Below are positions 11,275 through 23,473 of a DNA stretch of 64,000 bases, piece after piece. The DNA is taken from assembly GCF_036687315.1 (NCBI RefSeq), contig NZ_CP144683.1, positions 1,798,001 to 1,862,000 of the forward strand. Direction: 5' to 3'. The notes under the pieces are model-generated. The model saw nothing but the letters and a program-made list of their open reading frames with translations, was not told the DNA's origin and ran no database searches. Every line of letters starts with the position of its first letter. Positions within the stretch are counted from its first letter, which is position 1. Source of the stretch: Sphingopyxis sp. TUF1. GTDB lineage: Bacteria; Pseudomonadota; Alphaproteobacteria; Sphingomonadales; Sphingomonadaceae. Made by a program: the position numbers and the translations under genes.

Positions 11275-14200
11275 TCAATTCGCGTGTAGGAGCGGCGGGC
11301 GCCAGGCGCTCTCGTCGATCTCGTCGCGCACCTTGTAGACCATCCCCTTGCTGTTCAGGAACAGCTTTTCCATCTCGGGCCGGGTGAAGGGGCGCGATCC
11401 CAGGCGTCCGAACACCGCCATCTGGCCGCCCGTTTCATCGACACCGCGGTCTCGGTCGAGCCCCTTCGACAGCGCGAGCGCGGGCGAGGGGGTTTTGGCC
11501 CAAGCGATCAGTTCGGGCGTCGGCTTGGGCGAGAAGCCATAGAGGCCGGGATTGTTCGGGCTGGTCAACTGGATCACCTTGATGCCGCTCCGCCCGTCGG
11601 CGACATAGGCAAAGAGCGAGGCGTTGGTCGATGCGACGATCACATCCTCGGCATCCTGCATCGCGCCGTCAAAGGTCAGCGCCGGCCAGACGAGCGGTGC
11701 TGCGGGGCGCGTGACATCGACAATGACCAGTCCGTCGGCCTTGGCGGCGACATACATATAGGTGCGGGCAAGATAGAGCTTGCGCGCATTGGCGAGGCGG
11801 ACCGTACCCGACGGAACCGCGACCGGCTGCGCCATGTTGGTGACGTCGAACAGCTTTACGCCATCGGCATCGGTGACCCACAGGTAGCGGAACTGCACCG
11901 CGCTGGCGCGCGCGTCGGTGAGCGCCACTTGCGCGGTGACCTTCGGCTGGAGAGGGGTCGAAAGGTCGAGCACGACGAGGCCCGCATCGGTGGTGATATA
12001 GGCATAGCTGCCCGCGAGCGTGACATGCCGCGCGCCCGCGAGCACATTGCCCTCGTTCCACGTCAGCGCGCGCTTGAGCTTGTTGTTGCGGAACTCGCCG
12101 TCCGCCAGCGTGTCGACATCGACGAGCACGAGCCCTTCGACGCTGTCGGTGATGACGGCGTAGCGATAGATGTCGTGCATCACCTGTTCGTGATTCTCGG
12201 GGAAATTCTTGACGATATTCTCGTTGCGGCTGACGCTGATCGGCTGGGTGGTCGCGAGCGCCATGCAGGTCGCATTTTTCGTGCGGACATGCGTGTCGTG
12301 GCCAAGCGGCGAGAAGGGGGCGCGGACGATGCGTTCGGAAAAGCCCTTGTTGCCGATCGACGCGACGTCATAGACGCGGAAGCCCCCGCGGCCCTCGGCA
12401 ACGAACATATATTCGCCGCGCTGTTGCAGGCAGTTCACGCGCCCGCTGGTGTCCTGAACGATGTTGGCAAACTCCTCGAGCGCCTGCGTTTCGCCCGATC
12501 CACGCGCGTCAAAGGTCTTGCCGCGCACCCAGTTTTTCAGCTCGCGGCCATTCTGGTCGACGTGGAGCTTCCAATAATCGGGATAGGCATAGCGGTGGAG
12601 GTAGGAGCCGATCACCGCCTGCGGCTCGTCCCATTCGGTGACGCGCGTCGCCTGGAAACCATTCTCCATCCCCGACCAGACGTTGAGCCCGACGAAATTG
12701 ACGAAATTGGTGCCGAGGAGCAGCAGCTGCGACATGATCGCATTATTGTCGTCAGCGGCCGAGAGGTGACAGTCGCTGCACTGCTTGGTTTCCTGGCGCC
12801 GCACCGTGTGCGGGAAATGCGGCGCAAAGGCCTGGCTCGAATAGCCCGCCGACGAAATCGGCGGTTGCTGGATATAGATGCGCTCGCGGTTGATGTTCGT
12901 CGATGACAGGATCAGCGCTGAGGTCGAGCGGACGGGAGTGATGATACCGCGCACTTCGCCGTTCGGGCCGGGTTCACCGGGCTTGGTGAGCTGGTGGCGG
13001 CCGAGCTGGAACATCTCGTCGCGCGCGACCTGCGGATTGTAGGTCGCGAAATTGCGCGTCTCTTCACCCTCGAAATGGTGCATCTTGGTCTTCCAGTTTG
13101 CCTCGATCGGCAAATGGCACCCGCCGCAACTCGTCGTCCAACTGAGGTGACAGGTGAAACAGGTCATCTTGTCGTCGCCGTGCGCGCGGTCCTCTTTTGC
13201 CACGCCCGGTCCCCATTCATATTTGCCGTCGTCACTGCCAGCGCGCGCCATCAGCTTGGCGCGCGCGGCCTTGGCGTTGAACTGCGGCCCCGGCGTCACC
13301 GCCTGCTTGACGAGGCTGACCTGCCATTCGAGCTTGGGATCGACGATCGACCGCTGGATCAGGCCGATCACCTCGGCATCGTCATTATATTGGAATTCGA
13401 AGCGCCGCCGCCCGTCGGGGTTGCGCAGGAGCGCAAGGTTGGTCCCCTGCGGCCTTGCCGCGACGTTCGAGGTGAGCAGGTTGGGCAGCGCGTCGGCGGT
13501 ACCGTGGCAATCCTTGCAGCTGATCTCGACCGCGTTCGCGACCTCGCCCTGAATATAGCCGTTGCCGTGCGCGTCCTGCGCGAAATGGCAGTCGGCGCAC
13601 TGCATCCCCTTTTCGGCGTGGATGTCCATCATATGGACCGATTTGCCGGGGTTGATGCCCGGCGGCACGAACTTGCCCTCGACCCCCGGGCGCTCCGGAT
13701 CGGCGCTGAGGAGGCAGAGATCGCGTTCCTTCGCATCGCTGTACTGCGCGCAGCTCTTGCGCCATTTCTCGGGATCGGCAGGATCGACGATATGCGCGGT
13801 GTCGGTGCCGTAAGTCGCCATATTGCCGTCGGCGGTGAGCAGATTGCCGCTCCGGTCGCGCTTGAAGATGCCGCGGAAGTTCCAGCCGTGGCCGTGATAG
13901 TCGGCGAACTGCGTATCCTTGTTGCTGTCGTTGACGTCATAGACGTTGCGCAGGAACTCGACATCGGCCCAGAGGCCGCGCGTCGCCGCGCCTTCGGGAT
14001 TGCGTTCGAGGACCTTGTGCGCCTCGGCGGCGGTCGGATAGCGCTGCTGCTTATATTTCGCCTGATACTCCGCATCGCTCATCCCGGGCGGGCGCGGCGC
14101 GGTGTTTTCGAGGCCGGGCCACAACTGCGGCGCGTCCGATTCATAATCCCACATCGTGTAGCCGAGGTAGGAGTTCAGGAAGATATTGGGCTGGTGCATG

Positions 14201-15576
14201 TGGCACGTCATGCACTGCGCGGTCGGGATCGCGCGCGTGAAGGCGTGGCTGAGCGGGTGGCCCGATTCGCGGCGCGGCTTCTGGCCGGGACGCGCCGGGA
14301 CGTCCGGATCGGCGGGGTCGATCAAGCCGCCATGGCCGCCGCCGGCATGATGTCCATCGTCGGGCGCCCCGTGCGCTGCGCCGTCATGCCCGCCGCCCTT
14401 CCATTTTTTCCCCGCAATCGTCGGATCGACCGTCGCCGTCTCGCCGTCGCGGCCGAACTGCGCATAGGTCAGGCTGTGCCGCGGCTCGCGATCGTTGGCA
14501 TAGATGACGTGGCAGCCCGCGCAGCCCGAATGGCGATAGTCGCCCGGCTGGTCGTTGGTGCCCATGAACCACATGAGCGGATCGTTGAGACGCGTCTTGT
14601 GGATGTTGAGCACGGGGATCGCGACGCGCAGGCCGGTGCCGGGCCCGCGGTTCGACTGTTTGAGGTCGGGGCGTCCGGGCTCCTCGAGCCGCTGGATGCT
14701 GCCCGTCGGGTTGGGCAGGCCGATTTCGGGGAATTGCGTGTTGATGTTGCGCCCGCCGCGCTCGAAGACGCGGAAGACGTCGCCGGGCGGGATCACGCTC
14801 CAGCGGGGCAGGGGATACATGCGGGCGAGCGCGCCGCGTTTCTTCTCGGCATCGGTCAAGATCTTGTCGGACGGAAAGGCGGGCTTGCACGCCTCGGCAT
14901 ATTCCTCCGCCGTCAGCCGCGACGAGGGCGACAGGATGCACGCGGGTTCGCCGGTGCGCGTATAAGCCTCGCCAAACACATAATTTTTATAGGGGACGAT
15001 GCCGTTGTTATACGCCGCCCCGCCCCACAGCATCGCCGAGGTCGACATCAGCGAGCGTTCGGTCGCCTCGATCACCTCCATATGGCACGCGCCGCACGCT
15101 TCGCGCGCGACGCGATAGTCGCTGGGGTTCACGAAGCGGATGAATTCGGGGGCTTCCTTGTTGAGCAAGGTGTAGCTGCGTTCGGGGTTCGCCGAACTGT
15201 CGTGCCATGCGCCGGGCAGGGTCGGCTGCGGATGCGCGACCTTCATCGCGGCGATATTGTAGGGGTTCTTGTAACCCAGCTCGGGCTTGCCGAAAGCGGC
15301 GGGCGAGGTCGAATCGCCGCCGTGGCAGTCGGTGCAGCCGAGCTTGACCGCCGGGGTCGCGTGCATCGACGGCTGGTCGGTCTGCGTGTGGCAGCTGTAA
15401 CAGCCCGCCGATTTCGCCGCGACGTCGGCGTCGCTCTGCTCGCGCGGTGCGGGCGGGGTGAAGCGATAGGTGATCTTGAGCGGCTTTTCCTCTTCGGCGG
15501 CGCGGCCGACGCTCGCGCCGAAAGCGGCGCAGAGCGTGACAAAGGCCAGCAGGGCGAAGAGTTTGCGTATCACCAT
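11275..15576 (-). CDS. Decaheme c-type cytochrome with LVIVD-repeat C-terminus
   Basis: A 1433-residue exported protein. Residues 1-26 (MVIRKLFALLAFVTLCAAFG to GRAA) form a Sec signal peptide. I count ten CXXCH heme motifs, near residues 59, 81, 161, 352, 455, 660, 687, 806, 817 and 933. A His/Gly-rich stretch (394-416) lies between motifs four and five. The last 400 residues carry repeats such as EGLVLVDVDTL, AGLVVLDLSTP, DGLVIVDVTRPAAP and SGIKVIQLTSP, the LVIVD pattern of beta-propellers in bacterial surface proteins. ATG follows the barrel stop by one base. With the barrel, lipoprotein and second cytochrome this looks like the main electron-carrying part of an outer-membrane conduit. The terminal donor or acceptor is unknown. 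No close relative is recognised. Confidence 0.85.
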   Translation of the reverse strand: MVIRKLFALLAFVTLCAAFGASVGRAAEEEKPLKITYRFTPPAPREQSDADVAAKSAGCYSCHTQTDQPSMHATPAVKLGCTDCHGGDSTSPAAFGKPELGYKNPYNIAAMKVAHPQPTLPGAWHDSSANPERSYTLLNKEAPEFIRFVNPSDYRVAREACGACHMEVIEATERSLMSTSAMLWGGAAYNNGIVPYKNYVFGEAYTRTGEPACILSPSSRLTAEEYAEACKPAFPSDKILTDAEKKRGALARMYPLPRWSVIPPGDVFRVFERGGRNINTQFPEIGLPNPTGSIQRLEEPGRPDLKQSNRGPGTGLRVAIPVLNIHKTRLNDPLMWFMGTNDQPGDYRHSGCAGCHVIYANDREPRHSLTYAQFGRDGETATVDPTIAGKKWKGGGHDGAAHGAPDDGHHAGGGHGGLIDPADPDVPARPGQKPRRESGHPLSHAFTRAIPTAQCMTCHMHQPNIFLNSYLGYTMWDYESDAPQLWPGLENTAPRPPGMSDAEYQAKYKQQRYPTAAEAHKVLERNPEGAATRGLWADVEFLRNVYDVNDSNKDTQFADYHGHGWNFRGIFKRDRSGNLLTADGNMATYGTDTAHIVDPADPEKWRKSCAQYSDAKERDLCLLSADPERPGVEGKFVPPGINPGKSVHMMDIHAEKGMQCADCHFAQDAHGNGYIQGEVANAVEISCKDCHGTADALPNLLTSNVAARPQGTNLALLRNPDGRRRFEFQYNDDAEVIGLIQRSIVDPKLEWQVSLVKQAVTPGPQFNAKAARAKLMARAGSDDGKYEWGPGVAKEDRAHGDDKMTCFTCHLSWTTSCGGCHLPIEANWKTKMHHFEGEETRNFATYNPQVARDEMFQLGRHQLTKPGEPGPNGEVRGIITPVRSTSALILSSTNINRERIYIQQPPISSAGYSSQAFAPHFPHTVRRQETKQCSDCHLSAADDNNAIMSQLLLLGTNFVNFVGLNVWSGMENGFQATRVTEWDEPQAVIGSYLHRYAYPDYWKLHVDQNGRELKNWVRGKTFDARGSGETQALEEFANIVQDTSGRVNCLQQRGEYMFVAEGRGGFRVYDVASIGNKGFSERIVRAPFSPLGHDTHVRTKNATCMALATTQPISVSRNENIVKNFPENHEQVMHDIYRYAVITDSVEGLVLVDVDTLADGEFRNNKLKRALTWNEGNVLAGARHVTLAGSYAYITTDAGLVVLDLSTPLQPKVTAQVALTDARASAVQFRYLWVTDADGVKLFDVTNMAQPVAVPSGTVRLANARKLYLARTYMYVAAKADGLVIVDVTRPAAPLVWPALTFDGAMQDAEDVIVASTNASLFAYVADGRSGIKVIQLTSPNNPGLYGFSPKPTPELIAWAKTPSPALALSKGLDRDRGVDETGGQMAVFGRLGSRPFTRPEMEKLFLNSKGMVYKVRDEIDESAWRPPLLHAN

Positions 15577-15577
15577 C

Positions 15578-17491
15578 TCAAAAACTCAGAATCACATTGG
15601 CGAGGATCGACACATAGGCGTCGTTCTTCTGCTTGTTGTCGAACAGATCCTTGAAGCCGTCGCCGGGCAGCAGCACCGCGGCGCTGAGCCGCCCGACGAT
15701 ATTCTGCGTCGCCTTCGGCCGCCAGATCGCCGCGACCGACAGGTCGAAACCGATGTCCTTGGGGATCGAGCCTTCCATGCGCAACGCCTGGAGCGAGGAG
15801 GTGTTTTCGAACCACAGATGGTTGGCGTTGACGCTGACACGCGTCTGCGGCGACAGGTCGAAATCGGCGCCTGCGCCGATGAAGATGGTGCCGGGGTTGT
15901 TGAAGTTCGACTGCCCCTCTTCCTTTGACGAGCGCAGCGAGTTCAGGATGCCGTTACGGCCGTTGATCGAAATGACGCGCCCGCCGCCCGCGAAGGGGAT
16001 CGTCTGGCGAATCCAGTAGCTCGTGTCGGCGCCGCCGAAGATCGGGTTTTCAAAGATCGCATCGAAGCCGCCCTCGGTCTTGTTATACGGGTCGCCGTCG
16101 CCGGTGGCATAAAGCCCCGACAGGCGAAAGCGCATCCAGTCGTAATCGTAACTGAGTTCGACCGCGCCGAAACCGGCGCGGATTTCGGCGGGCTGGCTGG
16201 TGAAAAAGCTGTTCCGGTCCTCGCCCAGCGCGGCGTAAAAGCTGGCGGTGACATTGATCCGCCCGATCCGCCCGTCGGCGCTGTAGCCGAGGTACACCAC
16301 ATCATATTCGCGCCCGCGCAGGTCGCCGATCAGCGCCGGGCGCACCGGAAAGCCGTTGTGGTCAATCTGCACGTCGTTCTTTTCGCGGTTCATATTATAG
16401 GTCACGCTGACCTGGCTGGTCAGCCCGACGACCGGGAAATCCTGGCGATAGAGGTTGGCGGTGAGGATGAAATCGTCGCGTGGCGTTTGGGTGATGTCGT
16501 TGAGGCCCGAATTGGTATCCTTTTCGAGCCGCCAGAAGGCCGCGAAATTATACTGGAAGCGGTTGTTGTCGCGATTGCCGAAGAAGCGCAGCCCAAGCTG
16601 ACTGTCGTTGAACAGGAAGCCGCGAAAATCGCTCTGGAACGGCTGGATGCCGAGGCGCACCGAATAGAAATCATAGCGGTCGGACGTGTTGCCGAGATGC
16701 TTGTCGACGAACAGTTCCTGCACGCCGAGGAAGCTGTCGTACCGATGGCTCGGCCGCGACGGGCGCACGTCGAGCACGCGCCGTTCGGGGACGTCGACAT
16801 AATTAGCCTGATAAGCGAGCGTCAGGCGATATTCGATGTCGGGCGGCTTGAACGCGGTCGAGCCCTTGATCAGCGCGACGCCGCCGATGAAGGTCTGTGC
16901 AAAGACGAAGCTGCGGTCCTTGCCGAACACATCAAGGCTGCCCGGCCGCTCGGTCGTCTGGACGCCGACGGGGATGGGAAAGGTGCGCGGTTCGAACACC
17001 GTGTCGGACACCGCATTGGCGACGAAGAACCAGTCGTCGCCCTTGATCGGCAGCCATTTGACCTTGTCGGGATCGATCGCGCGGTCGCCCTTCAGCGTGT
17101 TCTGGTGATAGGGGTCGAACCAGCGTTCCTTGACCACGCCCAATGTCTCGATGAGCCGCCAGCGGTCGGGGACGGGAAGCTGGTCCTCGATCCCCGGAAA
17201 GGCCTGCGGCGGCGGCGGGCGCAATGCGCCGACATTGTCCTGGGTCAGCGCGTCGGGCAGGTCGGGGCGATAGCCGGGGCGGCGGCGGCCCTCGATCATG
17301 TCGGTGACGAGGTCGTCCGGCACCATTTCCTGCCAGTCGACCGGCGGCGGGGGCGGGGTGAGGTCTTCGGGCGGTTGCTCGGCGGGTGCGGCATCGACCG
17401 GCGCGGGCGGTGGCAGCGGCGCATCGGCCCCCGGCGCCCCCTGCGCCGCGAGCGTCGCGATGATCGGCCAAAGGCTGCCCCCCGTCATCAT
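15578..17491 (-). CDS. Outer-membrane beta-barrel of a porin-cytochrome locus
   Basis: A 637-residue protein with a short hydrophobic start (SLWPIIATLAAQ), a Pro-rich segment (about residues 25-50) and then a long run of alternating amphipathic strands (RLTLAYQANYVDVPE, FQYNFAAFWRLEKD, VSVTYNMNREKND, FRLSGLYATGDGD). It ends ...NVILSF, the C-terminal Phe typical of BAM-assembled barrels. Size is close to the MtrB/OmbB barrels of electron conduits (about 650-700 residues), but I cannot see the N-terminal CXXC of Shewanella MtrB. It sits between the GlcG-type lipoprotein (3-bp gap) and the decaheme gene (1-bp gap), which is the reason for the functional call. A substrate porin is the alternative. 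Confidence 0.75.
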   Translation of the reverse strand: MMTGGSLWPIIATLAAQGAPGADAPLPPPAPVDAAPAEQPPEDLTPPPPPVDWQEMVPDDLVTDMIEGRRRPGYRPDLPDALTQDNVGALRPPPPQAFPGIEDQLPVPDRWRLIETLGVVKERWFDPYHQNTLKGDRAIDPDKVKWLPIKGDDWFFVANAVSDTVFEPRTFPIPVGVQTTERPGSLDVFGKDRSFVFAQTFIGGVALIKGSTAFKPPDIEYRLTLAYQANYVDVPERRVLDVRPSRPSHRYDSFLGVQELFVDKHLGNTSDRYDFYSVRLGIQPFQSDFRGFLFNDSQLGLRFFGNRDNNRFQYNFAAFWRLEKDTNSGLNDITQTPRDDFILTANLYRQDFPVVGLTSQVSVTYNMNREKNDVQIDHNGFPVRPALIGDLRGREYDVVYLGYSADGRIGRINVTASFYAALGEDRNSFFTSQPAEIRAGFGAVELSYDYDWMRFRLSGLYATGDGDPYNKTEGGFDAIFENPIFGGADTSYWIRQTIPFAGGGRVISINGRNGILNSLRSSKEEGQSNFNNPGTIFIGAGADFDLSPQTRVSVNANHLWFENTSSLQALRMEGSIPKDIGFDLSVAAIWRPKATQNIVGRLSAAVLLPGDGFKDLFDNKQKNDAYVSILANVILSF

Positions 17492-17494
17492 CGC

Positions 17495-19471
17495 CTATAG
17501 CCCGTCGCAGACATTTTGCTGCGCCGTGTCGAGGAAGGGCGCGAAGGGGCAACTGATATAGCGGAGGCGCACGGTGCGATTGTCGGCGAGCGTTACGACG
17601 ACATTATCGGCGCGGATCGATTTTGGCGCATTGCCGATGCCGCCGATGCGCGCGCCGGCGTTGTGCGTGCCCAAAAAGCTGATCATATCGTCCTGGTCGA
17701 TGCCGTCGCCCGAGACGCCGATCGCGCCGATGAGCGTCGAACCGCGATAGATGGGGACCGATCCGGGGAAGATCTGGATACCGTTCTGGAGCCGGTTCTG
17801 GCCCGGCGCGGCGTCGGGCAGGGTCGTGCAGCGCTGCGGCGTGTCGGTCGGGCTGGCGCCCGACACGAAGCCCAGATGCGCGCCGAGGTTCCCGATAATC
17901 AGCGCCGATTGCAGCCCGGTCGAGAAGGGGTTGAACTGCGCGATCGGGCGCGACAGCGGGCCCTGCGGGCGTCCCACCTCGCCATCGGGGAAATAGGGGC
18001 GCGACAAATTGCCGCCCGAGCGGTCGGCGAAGGCGATGGTGCCGGTGAGCGCGGCGGGATCGTTCAGGAAACTGCGCACCGCGGGCACGAACTGGCGGAC
18101 ATCGGCGCTGGCATTGGCGGTCAATTCGGCGGCGGCTTGCGGACCCGAGAAAAAGGCCGCGGTGCGCGCCTTCTGCAAGCTGACGTCGGTGCCGAAGATC
18201 GGCGCGTCGGGCGAGCGGACGATGCCGAGCACCGCGCCGTGCGTATCGACGAGACTGATTGTCACCTGCGCGCGGCTGTCGAGCGGGCGCCGGATCTGCG
18301 CGCGCGCGCGGCTCATCACGGTAAAGGCTTCCTCGAGCACCGCGCGCGCCTCGGCCGCGGTCAGCGGCGCGGCGACGCTGGCGCCGTCGGTGGCGGCGCG
18401 GATCGGGTAGCGGTTCGTGCCGCTGCCGTCGGTCAGGATGAAGGCGTCGCGGTTCGAAAATTCGGCCGGGGTCGAGGCGCGGATGCCCGACGCTTCGCTG
18501 CCATAAGCGACCCCTGCGGTGATCGCGGCATTGGCATAGCCGATGACCGCGACCAGGTTGCCCGCGCTGCCGTTGAGGCTCGCGAAGCTGGCGCCGCCGC
18601 TGGTCATCACCCCGGCGAAGGTCGCGTCCGAAAAGCGCAGCGTGGTGCCGTCGACCGCGATCCGGTCGGCGGTGATCGTCGCCGGTGCCTCGAACCCGCG
18701 CGTTCCGGCCAGTGCGATAAACTCCTCGTCATCGTCGTCGATGTCGAGGATATTGGGATCGCTGCCATAGACGCCGTCGCCCATCACGCCGATGCCGCCG
18801 ACGAGCACGCCATTCTTGTAGAGTGGCAGTCCGCCGGGATCGGCGGCGAGGCCGAGCGGCGAGCGTTTGGGGCCGATCAGCGCCGCGGAACCCGCAGCGC
18901 CAAAGCGCGCCGACAGGTCGCTGCATGGAAGCTGGCTGAACTGCACGCCGAACAGCGGCCCGCTTTCGAGTCCGACGGTCGTGGGCGCGGGCGGGAAATG
19001 TTCCTGAACGATCTGGCTCGCGGTGCGCGTCGAAAAGGCATTGCCGCCGCTCGAGAGATAGGCGCCGGTCACCGCCTTCGCGATCGCGCCGCCTTCGGCC
19101 GGAAAGGTGACATTCTGCGCGTCGATATTGTCGCCATTGGGCGCCGCCGAGGTCGTCGCCGTCGCCGCCGCGCCATTCATGCGAAAGACGCCCAGCACAT
19201 TGCCGACGCGGTCGGTCACCGCGATCACCGAGGGCAGGCCGCGTGCCTGCGCTTCCGATATCGCATTGGCGAGGATTGTCTGCACGTCGCCCACGCCGAG
19301 CGATTCGGCGGCGGGCGGGGTGTAGAGGCCGCCGGTCGGCGTGGGGGTCGGGGTCGGTGTCGGCGATGGCGTGGGCGTGCCGCCGCCACCCCCGCCGCCG
19401 CACGATGTCAGCAGCAACGCACTCATCGCGGCAAGCGCGCCCGAACGGAAAAGATGGCTGCTGCTTCGCAT
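17495..19471 (-). CDS. Lipoprotein with two GlcG/HbpS-like (DUF336) domains
   Basis: A 658-residue lipoprotein. The signal peptide ends in the lipobox LLTSC (Cys24), followed by poly-Gly and a PT-repeat linker, a spacer often seen in surface-exposed lipoproteins. Two GlcG/HbpS-type modules follow: GLPSVIAVTDRVGNVLGVFR in the first half, and RAQVTISLVDTHGAVLGIVR with PIYRGSTLIGAIGVSGDG in the second. HbpS of Streptomyces binds and degrades heme and senses redox stress; GlcG itself has no clear function. AGGTAAG upstream of ATG 19471 overlaps the cytochrome stop codon, so start and operon are clear. A heme-handling or redox-partner role at the outer membrane is inferred from neighbours. Confidence 0.75.
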   Translation of the reverse strand: MRSSSHLFRSGALAAMSALLLTSCGGGGGGGTPTPSPTPTPTPTPTGGLYTPPAAESLGVGDVQTILANAISEAQARGLPSVIAVTDRVGNVLGVFRMNGAAATATTSAAPNGDNIDAQNVTFPAEGGAIAKAVTGAYLSSGGNAFSTRTASQIVQEHFPPAPTTVGLESGPLFGVQFSQLPCSDLSARFGAAGSAALIGPKRSPLGLAADPGGLPLYKNGVLVGGIGVMGDGVYGSDPNILDIDDDDEEFIALAGTRGFEAPATITADRIAVDGTTLRFSDATFAGVMTSGGASFASLNGSAGNLVAVIGYANAAITAGVAYGSEASGIRASTPAEFSNRDAFILTDGSGTNRYPIRAATDGASVAAPLTAAEARAVLEEAFTVMSRARAQIRRPLDSRAQVTISLVDTHGAVLGIVRSPDAPIFGTDVSLQKARTAAFFSGPQAAAELTANASADVRQFVPAVRSFLNDPAALTGTIAFADRSGGNLSRPYFPDGEVGRPQGPLSRPIAQFNPFSTGLQSALIIGNLGAHLGFVSGASPTDTPQRCTTLPDAAPGQNRLQNGIQIFPGSVPIYRGSTLIGAIGVSGDGIDQDDMISFLGTHNAGARIGGIGNAPKSIRADNVVVTLADNRTVRLRYISCPFAPFLDTAQQNVCDGL

Positions 19472-19475
19472 GATC

Positions 19476-20960
19476 TTACCTGAGCGCCCCGATCGCGCGC
19501 ACCGCGCTGCCGAACGAGGTCTGGAATTCGGCGGGCTTATAGCCATTGGGATCCTTCACCGCGGCATAGGCACGGTCGATGTCGCCGCGGATCCCCGCCG
19601 CCGCGCCGACGGTGATCCGCCCCGACGAGACCATCGCGCCCAGCAGTGTATCGACCCCCATCACCGCCTGCTGCGACCCCGAATAGTCGGTGTAGCGTTC
19701 GCTGATCGCCTTCGCCGCGATGGCATCGACCATTTGAAAGGCGTCGGCGCCCGAGAAAGTGCGCGACGCGAACGCGCTTTTCAGCGCCGCGACCGTCTGC
19801 GAAAGCTGTGCCGCCGCGGCGACGGCACTCGGCCGGTCGGTGGCCATTGCCTTGTGGAAGGCTGCGGTACGCGCCGCGAGCTGGTCGGCGAGCGCGGGCG
19901 ATGCCATGCGCGCCGCGGCGGCGAGCATGATCAGATTTTCGTCATTATAGGGCGGCATCCCTTCGGGGAGGTTGCGACCCGGATTGTCGAGCCCGGTGCG
20001 CACGGGCTTCGCCTGATCGAAGATGCGGCGATGACAGCTGTGGCAGTCGAGGAAATAAAATTCGGGGAACATACCCTCAGTCCCGCGGCGCGTCTGGAAG
20101 AGGGCAAGACTGCGTTCGATCGCGGTCGCCTGTCCCACCGCCCACATCTGGACATGGTCGGTGCGCCGGTTCGCCGCGCCGAACTTGCGCCAGCCATAAT
20201 CGGCGTCCTCCTGATGGTGCGCCTGCAGCGAGGAGAAGAGGTCGAGCTCGAACGATATGCGCGGATGCCCCGCCGCCATGATGCGGTGGGTGACGAACTG
20301 ACCGTCGGTCGCCGATCCGAAATGGCAATCGACGCACAAGCCCGCGCGCACTACCGGATCCTCAAGCTTCTTGAGGCCCGCCGACAGGTTGGCGAGATGT
20401 TTCTCGCGCATTTCGCGATCAGGATCGGCGTTGGTGCCGACCCCGGCATAATGGTTCGCCAGCCAGCCGCCCGCGGGGCCATGGCACGATTCGCAGCCGA
20501 CGCCGTCTTCGAGCGGAACCGTGCCGCGCACCGCGCCCTTCGCCGCGACGGCGCCCGCGGTGGCATGGCAGCCGAGGCACGTCTGCGCGGTCGCCGGATC
20601 GCCGATGCCCAGATTGCGCGCGATGAACCGGCTGCGACTATTGTTCAAAACCGCCCAGGCGCGGCTGTGCGCGCCGCCGGGGGTTGAGGGCTCCTGCCAT
20701 TTCATCAGCTCATCCTGGCGGACGACGGTGCCGTCGCCCTCCATCCGGCCGTGGCAGGTCGATCCGGCGCACGAGGCGACGCCGGTGTAGCGCGCGGCGC
20801 TTTCGCCCTGCGATTGTGCAGGAGGGGCATAGACGAAGGCGGCGATCGCCAGCGCGCACATCGTCGCAGCAAGGACGGCAAACGCCGCGCGCGTAGGAAG
20901 ATGGGCGGCAAACGCCGCCCAAGGCCGATGGCTCCGCTCCTTCCCAGCGTGCGCCGTCAT
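19476..20960 (-). CDS. Pentaheme c554-like cytochrome
   Basis: A 494-residue protein with an N-terminal hydrophobic segment (AAFAVLAATMCALAIAAFVY) that is a signal peptide or membrane anchor. Canonical heme motifs are CLGCH (128), CESCH (156), CVDCH (209) and CHSCH (306). The first site is CAGSTCH (64-70), a CX4CH motif used by some multiheme cytochromes. VPLEDGVGCESCHGPAGGW is typical of the cytochrome c554 family. The last 150 residues are helical and heme-free. I start at ATG 20960, with AAGGGG seven bases upstream, rather than a TTG 21 bp earlier. As first gene of the tight four-gene run it is the likely periplasmic partner linking the inner-membrane pool to the barrel/decaheme pair. Confidence 0.82.
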   Translation of the reverse strand: MTAHAGKERSHRPWAAFAAHLPTRAAFAVLAATMCALAIAAFVYAPPAQSQGESAARYTGVASCAGSTCHGRMEGDGTVVRQDELMKWQEPSTPGGAHSRAWAVLNNSRSRFIARNLGIGDPATAQTCLGCHATAGAVAAKGAVRGTVPLEDGVGCESCHGPAGGWLANHYAGVGTNADPDREMREKHLANLSAGLKKLEDPVVRAGLCVDCHFGSATDGQFVTHRIMAAGHPRISFELDLFSSLQAHHQEDADYGWRKFGAANRRTDHVQMWAVGQATAIERSLALFQTRRGTEGMFPEFYFLDCHSCHRRIFDQAKPVRTGLDNPGRNLPEGMPPYNDENLIMLAAAARMASPALADQLAARTAAFHKAMATDRPSAVAAAAQLSQTVAALKSAFASRTFSGADAFQMVDAIAAKAISERYTDYSGSQQAVMGVDTLLGAMVSSGRITVGAAAGIRGDIDRAYAAVKDPNGYKPAEFQTSFGSAVRAIGALR

Positions 20961-21008: not shown

Positions 21009-22364
21009 TTACACCACCCCGAAAGCCAGCATCGCGTCGGCAACCTTCTTGAATCCGGCGATATTGGCGCCCTTCACATAATCGATATAGCCGTCGCCCT
21101 GGTCGCCATAGGTCAGGCAGCGCGTGTGGATGCCGTCCATGATGTCCTTCAGCATCTGTTGCAGCTCGCTCTCGCTCCAGGCGCGGCGTCCGCTGTTCTG
21201 GCTCATTTCCAGCCCCGACACCGCGACGCCGCCGGCGTTGGCGGCCTTGCCCGGCGCGAACATGATCTTTGCATCCTTAAAGACGTGCACACCGTCGAGG
21301 TTCGTCGGCATGTTGGCGCCCTCGCTGACCGCGATGCAGCCGTTGGCGACCAGCGTCTTTGCATCCTCGCCGAGCAATTCGTTCTGCGTCGCGCACGGCA
21401 GCGCGACGTCGCACGGCACACCCCACGGCGTTTTGCCGGCCGTGAAGCTCGCGCTTTTATACTGGTCGCAATATTCCTCGATCCGCCCGCGGCGGTGCGT
21501 CTTGTGCGCCTTCACCCAGTCGATCTTTTCCTGCGTGATGCCGTCGGGGTCGTGGATGAAGCCGCCCGAATCGGACAGCGTGAGCACCTTGCCGCCCAGC
21601 TGGACGATCTTTTCGGCGGCGTGCGTCGCGACATTGCCCGAACCGGAAATGACCGCCGTCTTGCCGCCCAGATCCTGTCCCTTTGCGGCGAGCATATTGG
21701 CAAGGAAATAGACCGCGCCATAGCCGGTCGCCTCGGTGCGGATCAGCGAGCCGCCCCATTCGAGCCCCTTGCCGGTCAGCACCCCGGTAAATTCGTTGGT
21801 GATGCGCTTGTACTGCCCGAACATGAAGCCGATCTCGCGCCCGCCGACTCCGATGTCACCCGCCGGGACGTCGATGTCAGCGCCGATGTGGCGGTAAAGC
21901 TCGGTCATGAAGCTCTGGCAAAAGCGCATGATCTCGCGCACGCTCTTGCCCTTGGGATTGAAGTTCGATCCGCCCTTGCCGCCGCCCATCGGCAGGCCGG
22001 TCAGTGCGTTCTTGAACGTCTGTTCGAACGCCAGGAATTTGAGCACGCTCTCGGTGACGCTGGGGTGAAAGCGGATGCCGCCCTTGTAAGGGCCGATCGC
22101 ATTGTTGTTCTGGACACGCCAGCCGCGCTGGACGCGGATATTGCCATTGTCATCCTCCCAGCAGACGCGGAAGGATACGACCCGGTCGGGTTCTGCGATG
22201 CGGCGCAGAATCTGCTGCGCGTGATATTCTTCCTTGTCGGCGATGAAATCGAAAATGTCCTCGGACACTTCCTGCACTGCCTGGACGAACTCGGGTTGCC
22301 CCGGGTTGCGTCGTTTCACGCCTTCCATGAACGTCGCAAAATCGACGTGATCCGAAACTGCCAT
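21009..22364 (-). CDS. gdhA: NADP-type glutamate dehydrogenase
   Basis: A 451-residue enzyme of the hexameric GDH family, converting 2-oxoglutarate and ammonium to glutamate with NADPH. Visible signatures are GPYKGGIRFHPSV, LTGLPMGGGKGGSNFNPKGK with the catalytic-site Lys, and the nucleotide-binding VISGSGNVATHAAEKI. Length matches the roughly 450-residue assimilatory type. It stops 48 bp upstream of the pentaheme cytochrome on the same strand with no obvious terminator between, so read-through into the cytochrome operon is possible although no metabolic link is obvious. Confidence 0.95.
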   Translation of the reverse strand: MAVSDHVDFATFMEGVKRRNPGQPEFVQAVQEVSEDIFDFIADKEEYHAQQILRRIAEPDRVVSFRVCWEDDNGNIRVQRGWRVQNNNAIGPYKGGIRFHPSVTESVLKFLAFEQTFKNALTGLPMGGGKGGSNFNPKGKSVREIMRFCQSFMTELYRHIGADIDVPAGDIGVGGREIGFMFGQYKRITNEFTGVLTGKGLEWGGSLIRTEATGYGAVYFLANMLAAKGQDLGGKTAVISGSGNVATHAAEKIVQLGGKVLTLSDSGGFIHDPDGITQEKIDWVKAHKTHRRGRIEEYCDQYKSASFTAGKTPWGVPCDVALPCATQNELLGEDAKTLVANGCIAVSEGANMPTNLDGVHVFKDAKIMFAPGKAANAGGVAVSGLEMSQNSGRRAWSESELQQMLKDIMDGIHTRCLTYGDQGDGYIDYVKGANIAGFKKVADAMLAFGVV

Positions 22365-22522
22365 GCACCCCTCCCCTGTATGACTGGGAAAGCCGGTGCG
22401 ACCCCTGACGACTTAATCGTTGACCGACCTTGTATGCCAAAGGCTACACCATCGCCAAACAAAGGCAATATGACGCCGCGCACAGGCCGTGTTTTTTCAT
22501 GCGCTGCGCGAGAGGGGTAAAA

Positions 22523-23473
22523 ATGAGCGAGAGCAAGGACATGGGCACCAGCGCCGCGGGCACGATGACGGGCGCTAACCGCGCGATATTGATTGCCGCA
22601 TTCGTGCTGCTTGCGGCCGCGATCGGCTACGCAATCTGGCGGGATTCGGCGCCTGAGGCCGCCGATCCGGTCGTCACGGGCGCTGCCGCGCCGGGTGACC
22701 AGCTCGCCGAACTGGAAGCGCGCGTGCAGCGCGAGCCGGGCAGTGCCGACGCCTGGACCGCGCTCGGCGCCGCCAAATTCGACCTTGGCGATTTTGTCGG
22801 CGCGACCGCGGCTTATGAAAAGGCCGTGGCGATTTCGCCCGAGTCGGCGGGCCTCTGGGCGGCGCTCGGCGAAGCGCGCGTGATGGCAAGCGAGCGCGAT
22901 CCGATGCCTGCTGCGGCGTCCGAGGCCTTTGACAAGGCGATCGCGCTCGACACCAAAGACCCGCGCGCGCGCTATTTCCTTGCGGTGAAAAAGGACATCG
23001 GCGGCGATCACAAGGGCGCGATCGAGGATTGGTTCGCGCTGCTCGCCGACACGCCGCAGGGTGCGCCGTGGGAAGCCGACCTGCGCCGCACGATCGAACA
23101 GGTCGGCGCGATCCACAAGATCGACGTCGCATCGCGGCTGGCGGCAACGCAGGCGCGGCCGTTGACCGCCGACGAAATGCCCGTTGCGGCGCGCGCGATT
23201 CCGGGGCCGAGCCGCGCCGATATGGAAGCCGCGTCGCAGCTTCCCAAGGGGCAGCAGGACGCGATGATTCAAAGCATGGTCGATGGGCTCGAAGCCAAGC
23301 TTCAGGCCAATCCCGCCGATGTCGATCGTTGGATCATGCTGATGCGCAGCCGCATGACGCTGGGCGAAACGTCAAAAGCCGCACAGGCGCTGAAGGACGG
23401 CATTGCTGCCAACCCCGCCGCCGCGGGCCGCCTGAAGGCGCAGGCGCAGCTGCTCGGTGTGCCGGGCGCATAG
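22523..23473 (+). CDS. CcmI/CycH-like tetratricopeptide protein
   Basis: A 316-residue protein with one N-terminal transmembrane helix (AILIAAFVLLAAAIGYAIW) followed by TPR units (ADAWTALGAAKFDLGDFVGA and GLWAALGEARVMAS) and a C-terminal segment (DVDRWIMLMRSRMTLGET). Layout and C-terminus resemble the periplasmic part of CcmI/CycH, which presents apocytochrome c to the heme lyase. No other ccm genes are nearby. A multiheme operon lies 1.5 kb away, which makes such a role attractive but unproven. I start at ATG 22523 because GAGGGG precedes it; an earlier in-frame start adds 31 residues with no membrane logic. Confidence 0.7.
   Translation: MSESKDMGTSAAGTMTGANRAILIAAFVLLAAAIGYAIWRDSAPEAADPVVTGAAAPGDQLAELEARVQREPGSADAWTALGAAKFDLGDFVGATAAYEKAVAISPESAGLWAALGEARVMASERDPMPAAASEAFDKAIALDTKDPRARYFLAVKKDIGGDHKGAIEDWFALLADTPQGAPWEADLRRTIEQVGAIHKIDVASRLAATQARPLTADEMPVAARAIPGPSRADMEAASQLPKGQQDAMIQSMVDGLEAKLQANPADVDRWIMLMRSRMTLGETSKAAQALKDGIAANPAAAGRLKAQAQLLGVPGA

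Follow-up and report, generated by a model that had tools for sequence, protein, structure and literature searches.

Outer-membrane electron conduits are described as having three components: a multiheme c-type cytochrome in the periplasm, a beta-protein integral to the outer membrane, and a lipoprotein with a redox cofactor (PMC6148476). In MtrCAB of Shewanella, PioAB of Rhodopseudomonas, and MtoAB of Sideroxydans, a barrel and a decaheme cytochrome share one operon (PMC10654088), as they do in the stretch of DNA considered here, 64,000 nucleotides from Sphingopyxis sp. TUF1 (the window). Four minus-strand genes at 11275-20960, with intergenic gaps of 4, 3, and 1 bp, encode two multiheme cytochromes, a lipoprotein, and a predicted outer-membrane barrel. 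We propose, with a probability of roughly 0.55, that this operon makes up one half, the one at the outer membrane, of an electron pathway of seven genes that would run from the inside of the cell to the outer membrane, the other half being a three-gene input module at a second locus. The genes of the window operon are as follows.

19476..20960, minus strand: P0004, a five-heme c554-like cytochrome of 494 residues and predicted periplasmic carrier (Pfam and heme motifs)
17495..19471, minus strand: P0003, a lipoprotein with a PT linker and repeated HbpS/GlcG-like (PF03928) domains (lipobox and Pfam)
15578..17491, minus strand: P0002, a predicted outer-membrane beta-barrel of 637 residues with a proline-rich N-terminus and a C-terminal Phe (sequence features)
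11275..15576, minus strand: P0001, an exported decaheme cytochrome of 1433 residues with a C-terminal LVIVD propeller (CXXCH count and Pfam)

The original prediction had described four tightly packed minus-strand genes encoding a five-heme c554-like cytochrome, a PT-linker lipoprotein, an outer-membrane barrel ending in Phe, and a 1433-residue ten-heme protein with an LVIVD propeller, and had read them as a candidate conduit in a sphingomonad, with the layout of MtrCAB and Pcc conduits. The packing follows from the coordinates of the open reading frames (ORFs), and each gene description agrees with the features reported below, except that the HbpS-like domains of the lipoprotein had been overlooked. 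As for the conduit interpretation, a conserved operon of barrel, lipoprotein, and two multiheme cytochromes with a linked input module speaks for it, and the part that falls away is membership in the MtrCAB family. Confinement to sphingomonads also proved too narrow a framing, as relatives occur in Alpha-, Beta-, and Gammaproteobacteria.

Conservation of the operon was followed in a family sample of 298 genomes from 96 genera, a genus-level sample of 148 genomes (80 of them from the window's genus), a phylum sample of 398 genomes, and a scan of named genomes. The scan yielded at least 594 confirmed stretches with a P0001-type gene, of which the best 80 were kept for locus analysis. The ranking took as its reference the first sequence of the query alignment, which groups with Colwelliaceae, so that these 80 are biased to Colwelliaceae-like kin, and no sphingomonad is among them; one named record titled Bordetella parapertussis is a metagenome bin whose label looks doubtful. 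Loci are scored below as having room when they have enough flanking sequence to hold the genes in question. The order P0003-P0002-P0001 is found in 62 of 65 named loci with room, the three misses being two loci without P0003 (L092 and L123) and one in which P0003 stands at a larger distance (L125). P0002 lies directly upstream of P0001, by a distance cutoff, in 70 of 73 named loci, and the other three have overlapping or split frames. In the family the triad is in order at 25 of 26 loci (L064 is without P0003), and P0004 is upstream at all 25 with room; near the named operons P0004 is present at 44 of 62 loci with room, always downstream. Conservation of the four-gene order had been offered as a check by the original prediction, and chance grouping of the four genes was rejected on the strength of the order conserved among relatives. 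At one locus (L029, genome G055) the four-gene cluster is split into several frames, possibly by sequencing error or decay.

A P0001 match is present in 76 of the 80 genomes of the window's genus, its own included and some partial or broken, in 78 of the 148 genomes of the genus-level sample, with matches in two further genera, and in 119 of the 298 family genomes, spread over 42 of the 96 genera. The phylum sample gives 22 matches among 398 genomes: 8 belong to family members, 3 are long matches from elsewhere (G678, G788, and G780), and 11 cover short heme or LVIVD stretches. Among the best 80 of the at least 594 named stretches, hosts include Cognaticolwellia, Thalassotalea, Parahaliea, Haliea, Steroidobacter, Duganella, Tahibacter, and Oceanibacterium. 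A quick tree places 27 family sequences in a fully supported set of 29, together with two other alphaproteobacteria, one of them nested among the family.

Clustering of the neighbors of the 80 named loci returned a recurrent set of three genes, for a protein with flavin adenine dinucleotide (FAD), cyclic nucleotide monophosphate (cNMP), and 4Fe-4S features, a cytochrome b, and a decaheme protein with an FHA-like domain (FHA-decaheme).

Input protein 1: about 800 residues, with pyridine-nucleotide oxidoreductase, cNMP-binding, and 4Fe-4S domains (Pfam)
Input protein 2: about 285 residues, a membrane protein that has five invariant His (60 rows) and matches cytochrome b561 below the cutoff
Input protein 3: FHA-decaheme, with an FHA-like domain predicted to be cytoplasmic, a membrane segment (by eye), and c7/c3 hemes (Pfam)

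The flavoprotein domain linked to nicotinamide adenine dinucleotide (phosphate), NAD(P), is of the YpdA/thioredoxin-reductase type by sub-cutoff matches. FHA-decaheme has ten CXXCH motifs in 67 of 71 relatives and ten invariant His in its heme part (nine rows), and a profile search with its FHA-like domain reaches FHA chains in the Protein Data Bank (PDB). Of the loci with room, 58 of 60 named ones and 6 of 25 from the family have all three input genes near P0001, and a plasmid of Sphingobium herbicidovorans carries all seven genes in a cluster. In the window's genome the module is an operon by itself, located at approximately C1:2244841-2250129 and about 426 kb away from the four genes, and the idea that this genome is without the input functions was rejected once they were found at this second locus.

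The two halves also occur together. With one marker gene for each half, scored in the same 298 family genomes, P0001 and FHA-decaheme are both present in 118 and both missing from 178, with one exception each way (Fisher p about 4e-82, a value inflated by shared ancestry). The search for FHA-decaheme also gave 20 weak matches (best E 1.4e-10), which were discounted in view of the short stretches they covered. One exception, G160 (67% complete), has P0001 only; the other, G312 (70% complete), has only a 52-residue piece of FHA-decaheme at a contig end. Within the genus, three of the four genomes without P0001 are also without FHA-decaheme.

In the pathway that we propose, NAD(P)H would reduce the flavin/4Fe-4S protein, from which electrons would pass through the cytochrome b to FHA-decaheme at the inner membrane, then to P0004 as periplasmic carrier, and on to P0001 at the P0002 barrel. 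The HbpS-like lipoprotein P0003 would sit at the outer membrane, and electrons would leave to an acceptor at or beyond the cell surface. We infer the input cofactors (from the domains), the cell locations, the order of the carriers, the outward direction, the outer-membrane passage, and the kind of acceptor; the gene sets, the heme-site counts, the conserved order, and the linkage and co-occurrence of the halves are observations. A single trans-envelope electron pathway is well supported by the linkage, and an electron crossing of the outer membrane would be plausible.

Outward flow is the direction that we favor, given the NAD(P)-linked flavoprotein at the inner end. In a reading with the opposite direction, the surface part would oxidize an extracellular donor, such as Fe(II), Mn(II), or a reduced organic compound, and deliver electrons to the quinone pool or to NAD(P)+. 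Many of the named hosts are aerobes, which counts toward this reading. A similar type of conduit is also described as working inward in the Fe(II)-oxidizing Rhodopseudomonas TIE-1 (PMC6148476). However, an NAD(P)-linked flavoprotein with 4Fe-4S at the inner end is more naturally a source of electrons, and those of the recurrent neighbors that were annotated include no iron-oxidation or carbon-fixation proteins. We consider inward flow quite improbable.

The periplasmic multiheme component of a conduit is likely represented by both P0004 and P0001, which have export signals along with 5 and 10 heme sites, respectively. At the DNA level, the CXXCH pattern occurs at 15 sites in the 64-kb window against 3.18 expected, and 14 of the 15 lie inside P0001 and P0004. 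P0004 matches Cytochrome_C554 at 46.1 bits (Pfam cutoff 20.8), has four CXXCH motifs and one CX4CH, and begins with what appears by eye to be a signal or anchor; a PDB profile search finds cytochrome c554 (1bvb). Heme sites across relatives were counted only in ORFs passing a length cut and a score cut. By this count the four-plus-one arrangement of P0004 recurs in 85 of the 86 relatives passing the length cut, and nine His are invariant (seven family rows), one of them inside the last heme motif. P0001 has ten CXXCH motifs, as do all 110 relatives passing both cuts, and matches LVIVD at 48.3 bits (cutoff 20.2), with the propeller at about 11540-12445 by eye and Pfam. Fourteen His outside the motifs are invariant among 42 aligned P0001 sequences. 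These numbers of invariant His fit bis-His, electron-carrying hemes, and no CXXCK was found in the heme proteins of the system among the relatives scored for heme motifs, so that there is no obvious catalytic heme. A NrfA-type nitrite reductase was considered for P0001 and rejected, as the matches are short and sub-cutoff and CXXCK is missing. With the P0001 heme region, a PDB profile search returned no match at E≤1. A secretin of type II secretion is encoded in the window's genome, so that P0001 might be exported to the cell surface.

The integral outer-membrane beta-protein is likely P0002, judging from the strand scan, the terminal residues, and weak matches of its relatives to barrel families. 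The window protein ends in Phe, and all 29 barrels compared (window included) end in Phe or Tyr. A crude strand scan gives 17 strand candidates, and about 18 are seen by eye; ExtB of Geobacter is given 18 transmembrane domains (PMC6148476). Neither Pfam nor NCBIfam gives a match to the window P0002 at E≤1, the alginate-export and porin models of these collections included; the protein's sole PDB match is a Tudor domain at E=1.2, and a PDB profile search with the barrel alignment returned nothing at E≤1. Identity with MtrB/PioB was rejected: hhalign gives a probability of 0.3% against 12 MtrB/PioB sequences, with no detectable profile similarity and no PF11854 match. A profile search found no gene of that family in the window's genome, and 35 of the 398 phylum genomes have one over the cutoff. 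P0002 may act as a channel, or as a conduit barrel of smaller size.

In the place of the redox lipoprotein stands P0003, which has a lipobox and HbpS-like domains and no CXXCH. Its start is the ATG that opens the lipoprotein signal, inside a longer ORF at 17495-19546; the lipobox reads LTSC, a PT-rich linker is present, and the HbpS-like PF03928 match scores 81.2 bits (cutoff 25). Heme and cobalamin are among the possible ligands of HbpS-like proteins, which may also serve as sensors (PMC8153426), and the HbpS-like domains of P0003 may bind heme or another ligand. This raises a further explanation, that P0003 senses heme or another ligand in redox or heme stress and that the hemes relay a redox signal to the FHA, PP2C, and cNMP proteins inside. 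HbpS is described as sensing environmental heme outside the cytoplasmic membrane (PMC8153426), and FHA, PP2C, and cNMP-binding domains recur in the cluster, a PP2C gene and a second FHA gene each being present at 26 of 113 loci. On the other hand, each of these two genes was not found at the remaining 87 loci, the lipoprotein is missing from four loci that keep the rest, and about 25 c-type heme sites of near-fixed number with a likely cytochrome b would seem excessive for a sensor. We regard a sensing role as very improbable.

Several observations weigh against the outward pathway that we prefer. A motif scan finds no CXXCH or other heme-c site in P0003, and P0003 is missing from L064, L092, L115, and L123, which retain the rest of the order. 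At 18 of the 62 named loci with room, P0004 was not found near the operon. For the FHA and cytochrome b domains, the matches fall short of the Pfam cutoffs. The co-occurrence covers one gene per half and in part reflects shared ancestry, and one genome of the same genus (G054, 99% complete) keeps FHA-decaheme with no P0001 match, through loss or an assembly gap. Among the barrels, Alginate_exp (PF13372) appears at E≤0.1 in 10 of 59 members of the barrel family; of ten members run singly two match it, one of them (L116) over the cutoff (28.6 against 25.2 bits), and a homotrimeric-porin model gives a weak match to a gammaproteobacterial member (24.7 bits against 250).

These weak porin- and alginate-export-like matches would also suit a periplasmic multiheme reductase, in which the barrel lets in a soluble oxidized small molecule, for instance the oxyanions selenite or tellurite, for P0001 and P0004 to reduce with electrons from the same input module, no electron crossing the outer membrane. 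The signal peptide of the window P0001 has no lipobox, which fits such an enzyme, as does a likeness of P0001 to ExtM of the Geobacter selenite/tellurite cluster (NF040943, 73.2 bits against a cutoff of 800), although that likeness is limited to short heme-binding stretches, the best of 51 residues. The fit to bis-His hemes and the lack of CXXCK argue against a reductase, and an enzyme working purely in the periplasm would not usually come with a dedicated barrel and an outer-membrane lipoprotein. Overall, we judge this reading unlikely, yet deserving of more weight than the two considered above.

Two further genes stand next to the window operon.

21009..22364, minus strand: a gdhA-like glutamate dehydrogenase, 48 bp upstream of the operon, a recurrent neighbor and candidate associate only
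22430..23473, plus strand: a CcmH/CycH-type TPR protein, for cytochrome c maturation to judge by the Pfam name

The same cluster is present on plasmid pMC4 of Sphingopyxis indica, with 82% identity in P0001 and 88.7% DNA identity in the neighboring gdhA, and both clusters are preceded by the same neighbors, gdhA, the TPR gene, and putA. The plasmids that carry the cluster in S. indica (pMC4, L163) and Sphingobium herbicidovorans (pMSHV, L164) are large and typed as conjugative. A gdhA-like gene is found at 14 of 113 loci, five of them gammaproteobacterial, and a metabolic link with the operon is possible; at L054 the gene lies between those for P0004 and P0003, inside the operon. A scan for promoters and terminators gave a signal no higher than in shuffled sequences. 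Around the input module, a CcmH/CycH-type TPR homologue is present in 17 of the 17 other family genomes examined, and 14 of the 17 also have a homologue of the metallophosphoesterase encoded after FHA-decaheme in the window's genome. A two-partner-secretion pair (TpsB/ShlB-like plus a 1958-residue exoprotein-like ORF) lies a few kb from the module (L165:3728-11440, C1 about 2253727-2261439); the exoprotein has no CXXCH by motif scan. Similar exoproteins occur near the operon in S. herbicidovorans (L164), L071, L059, and L053.

Sphingopyxis, Sphingobium, Steroidobacter, Haliea, Cognaticolwellia, and Duganella are mostly studied for aerobic growth. If the proposed pathway is correct, Proteobacteria such as these would have a multiheme route, complete from cytoplasm to outer membrane, that has escaped notice, with bearing on life when oxygen runs short, on the turnover of metals and metalloids, and on the repeated origin of electron conduits. 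In the open-licence literature searched, which excludes preprints, we found no description of the seven-gene system, nothing combining LVIVD with a multiheme cytochrome or a multiheme cytochrome c with an FHA domain, and nothing joining alginate export with multiheme cytochrome and extracellular electron, or multiheme with Sphingomonadaceae. The terms "LVIVD repeat" and "cytochrome" occur together in one paper, on Methanosarcina. A study of Sphingopyxis granuli under anoxia discusses alternative terminal oxidases and nitrate reductase, and its main text contains neither "multiheme" nor "LVIVD" (PMC6472365). The two half-operons provide a compact gene set for deletion and electrochemistry.

More tentatively, and at somewhat less than an even chance, the system could be a new, independently evolved class of NAD(P)H-to-surface conduit. 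In this class a porin/alginate-export-type barrel would hold a propeller-tipped decaheme protein, an HbpS lipoprotein would replace the surface cytochrome, and entry at the inner membrane would be gated by cyclic nucleotides and, in some lineages, by phospho-threonine signaling (FHA/PP2C). Many bacteria regarded as aerobes could then exchange electrons with the outside.

Overall, the window system resembles several known systems in part. By profile comparison it is outside the Mtr family: unlike in MtrCAB, PioAB, and MtoAB, its barrel is not detectably homologous to theirs, its operon has neither a small decaheme protein of MtrA size nor a lipoprotein c-type cytochrome, and P0001, at 1433 residues, has a propeller. 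P0001 also differs from the surface decaheme lipoproteins of the MtrC type, scoring 12.7 bits against PF22113 (MtrC/MtrF domain II/IV, cutoff 30) and having no lipobox. FHA-decaheme of the window's genome passes that model (32.1 bits against 30) but is unlike MtrC in its FHA-like domain, its membrane segment, and its lack of a lipobox. Some relatives of P0002 are weakly like the alginate-export barrels of PF13372, whereas the window protein has no such match and its operon context is redox rather than polysaccharide. With OmbB-OmaB-OmcB and extABCD of Geobacter, compared by layout, the window operon shares the logic of barrel, multiheme protein, and lipoprotein, but their outer lipoproteins are cytochromes. 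The closest layout is that of extHIJKL(MNOPQS) of Geobacter sulfurreducens, which is described as also having a barrel, a pentaheme protein, a non-cytochrome lipoprotein, further multiheme proteins, and an inner-membrane cytochrome b (PMC6148476, PMC5877670). A rhodanese lipoprotein, a Rieske protein, and a predicted selenocysteine set the Geobacter cluster apart, whereas the HbpS lipoprotein, the LVIVD-decaheme, the FHA-decaheme, and the FAD/cNMP/4Fe-4S protein belong only to the window-type system, in a comparison that takes ExtI and ExtKL by description only.

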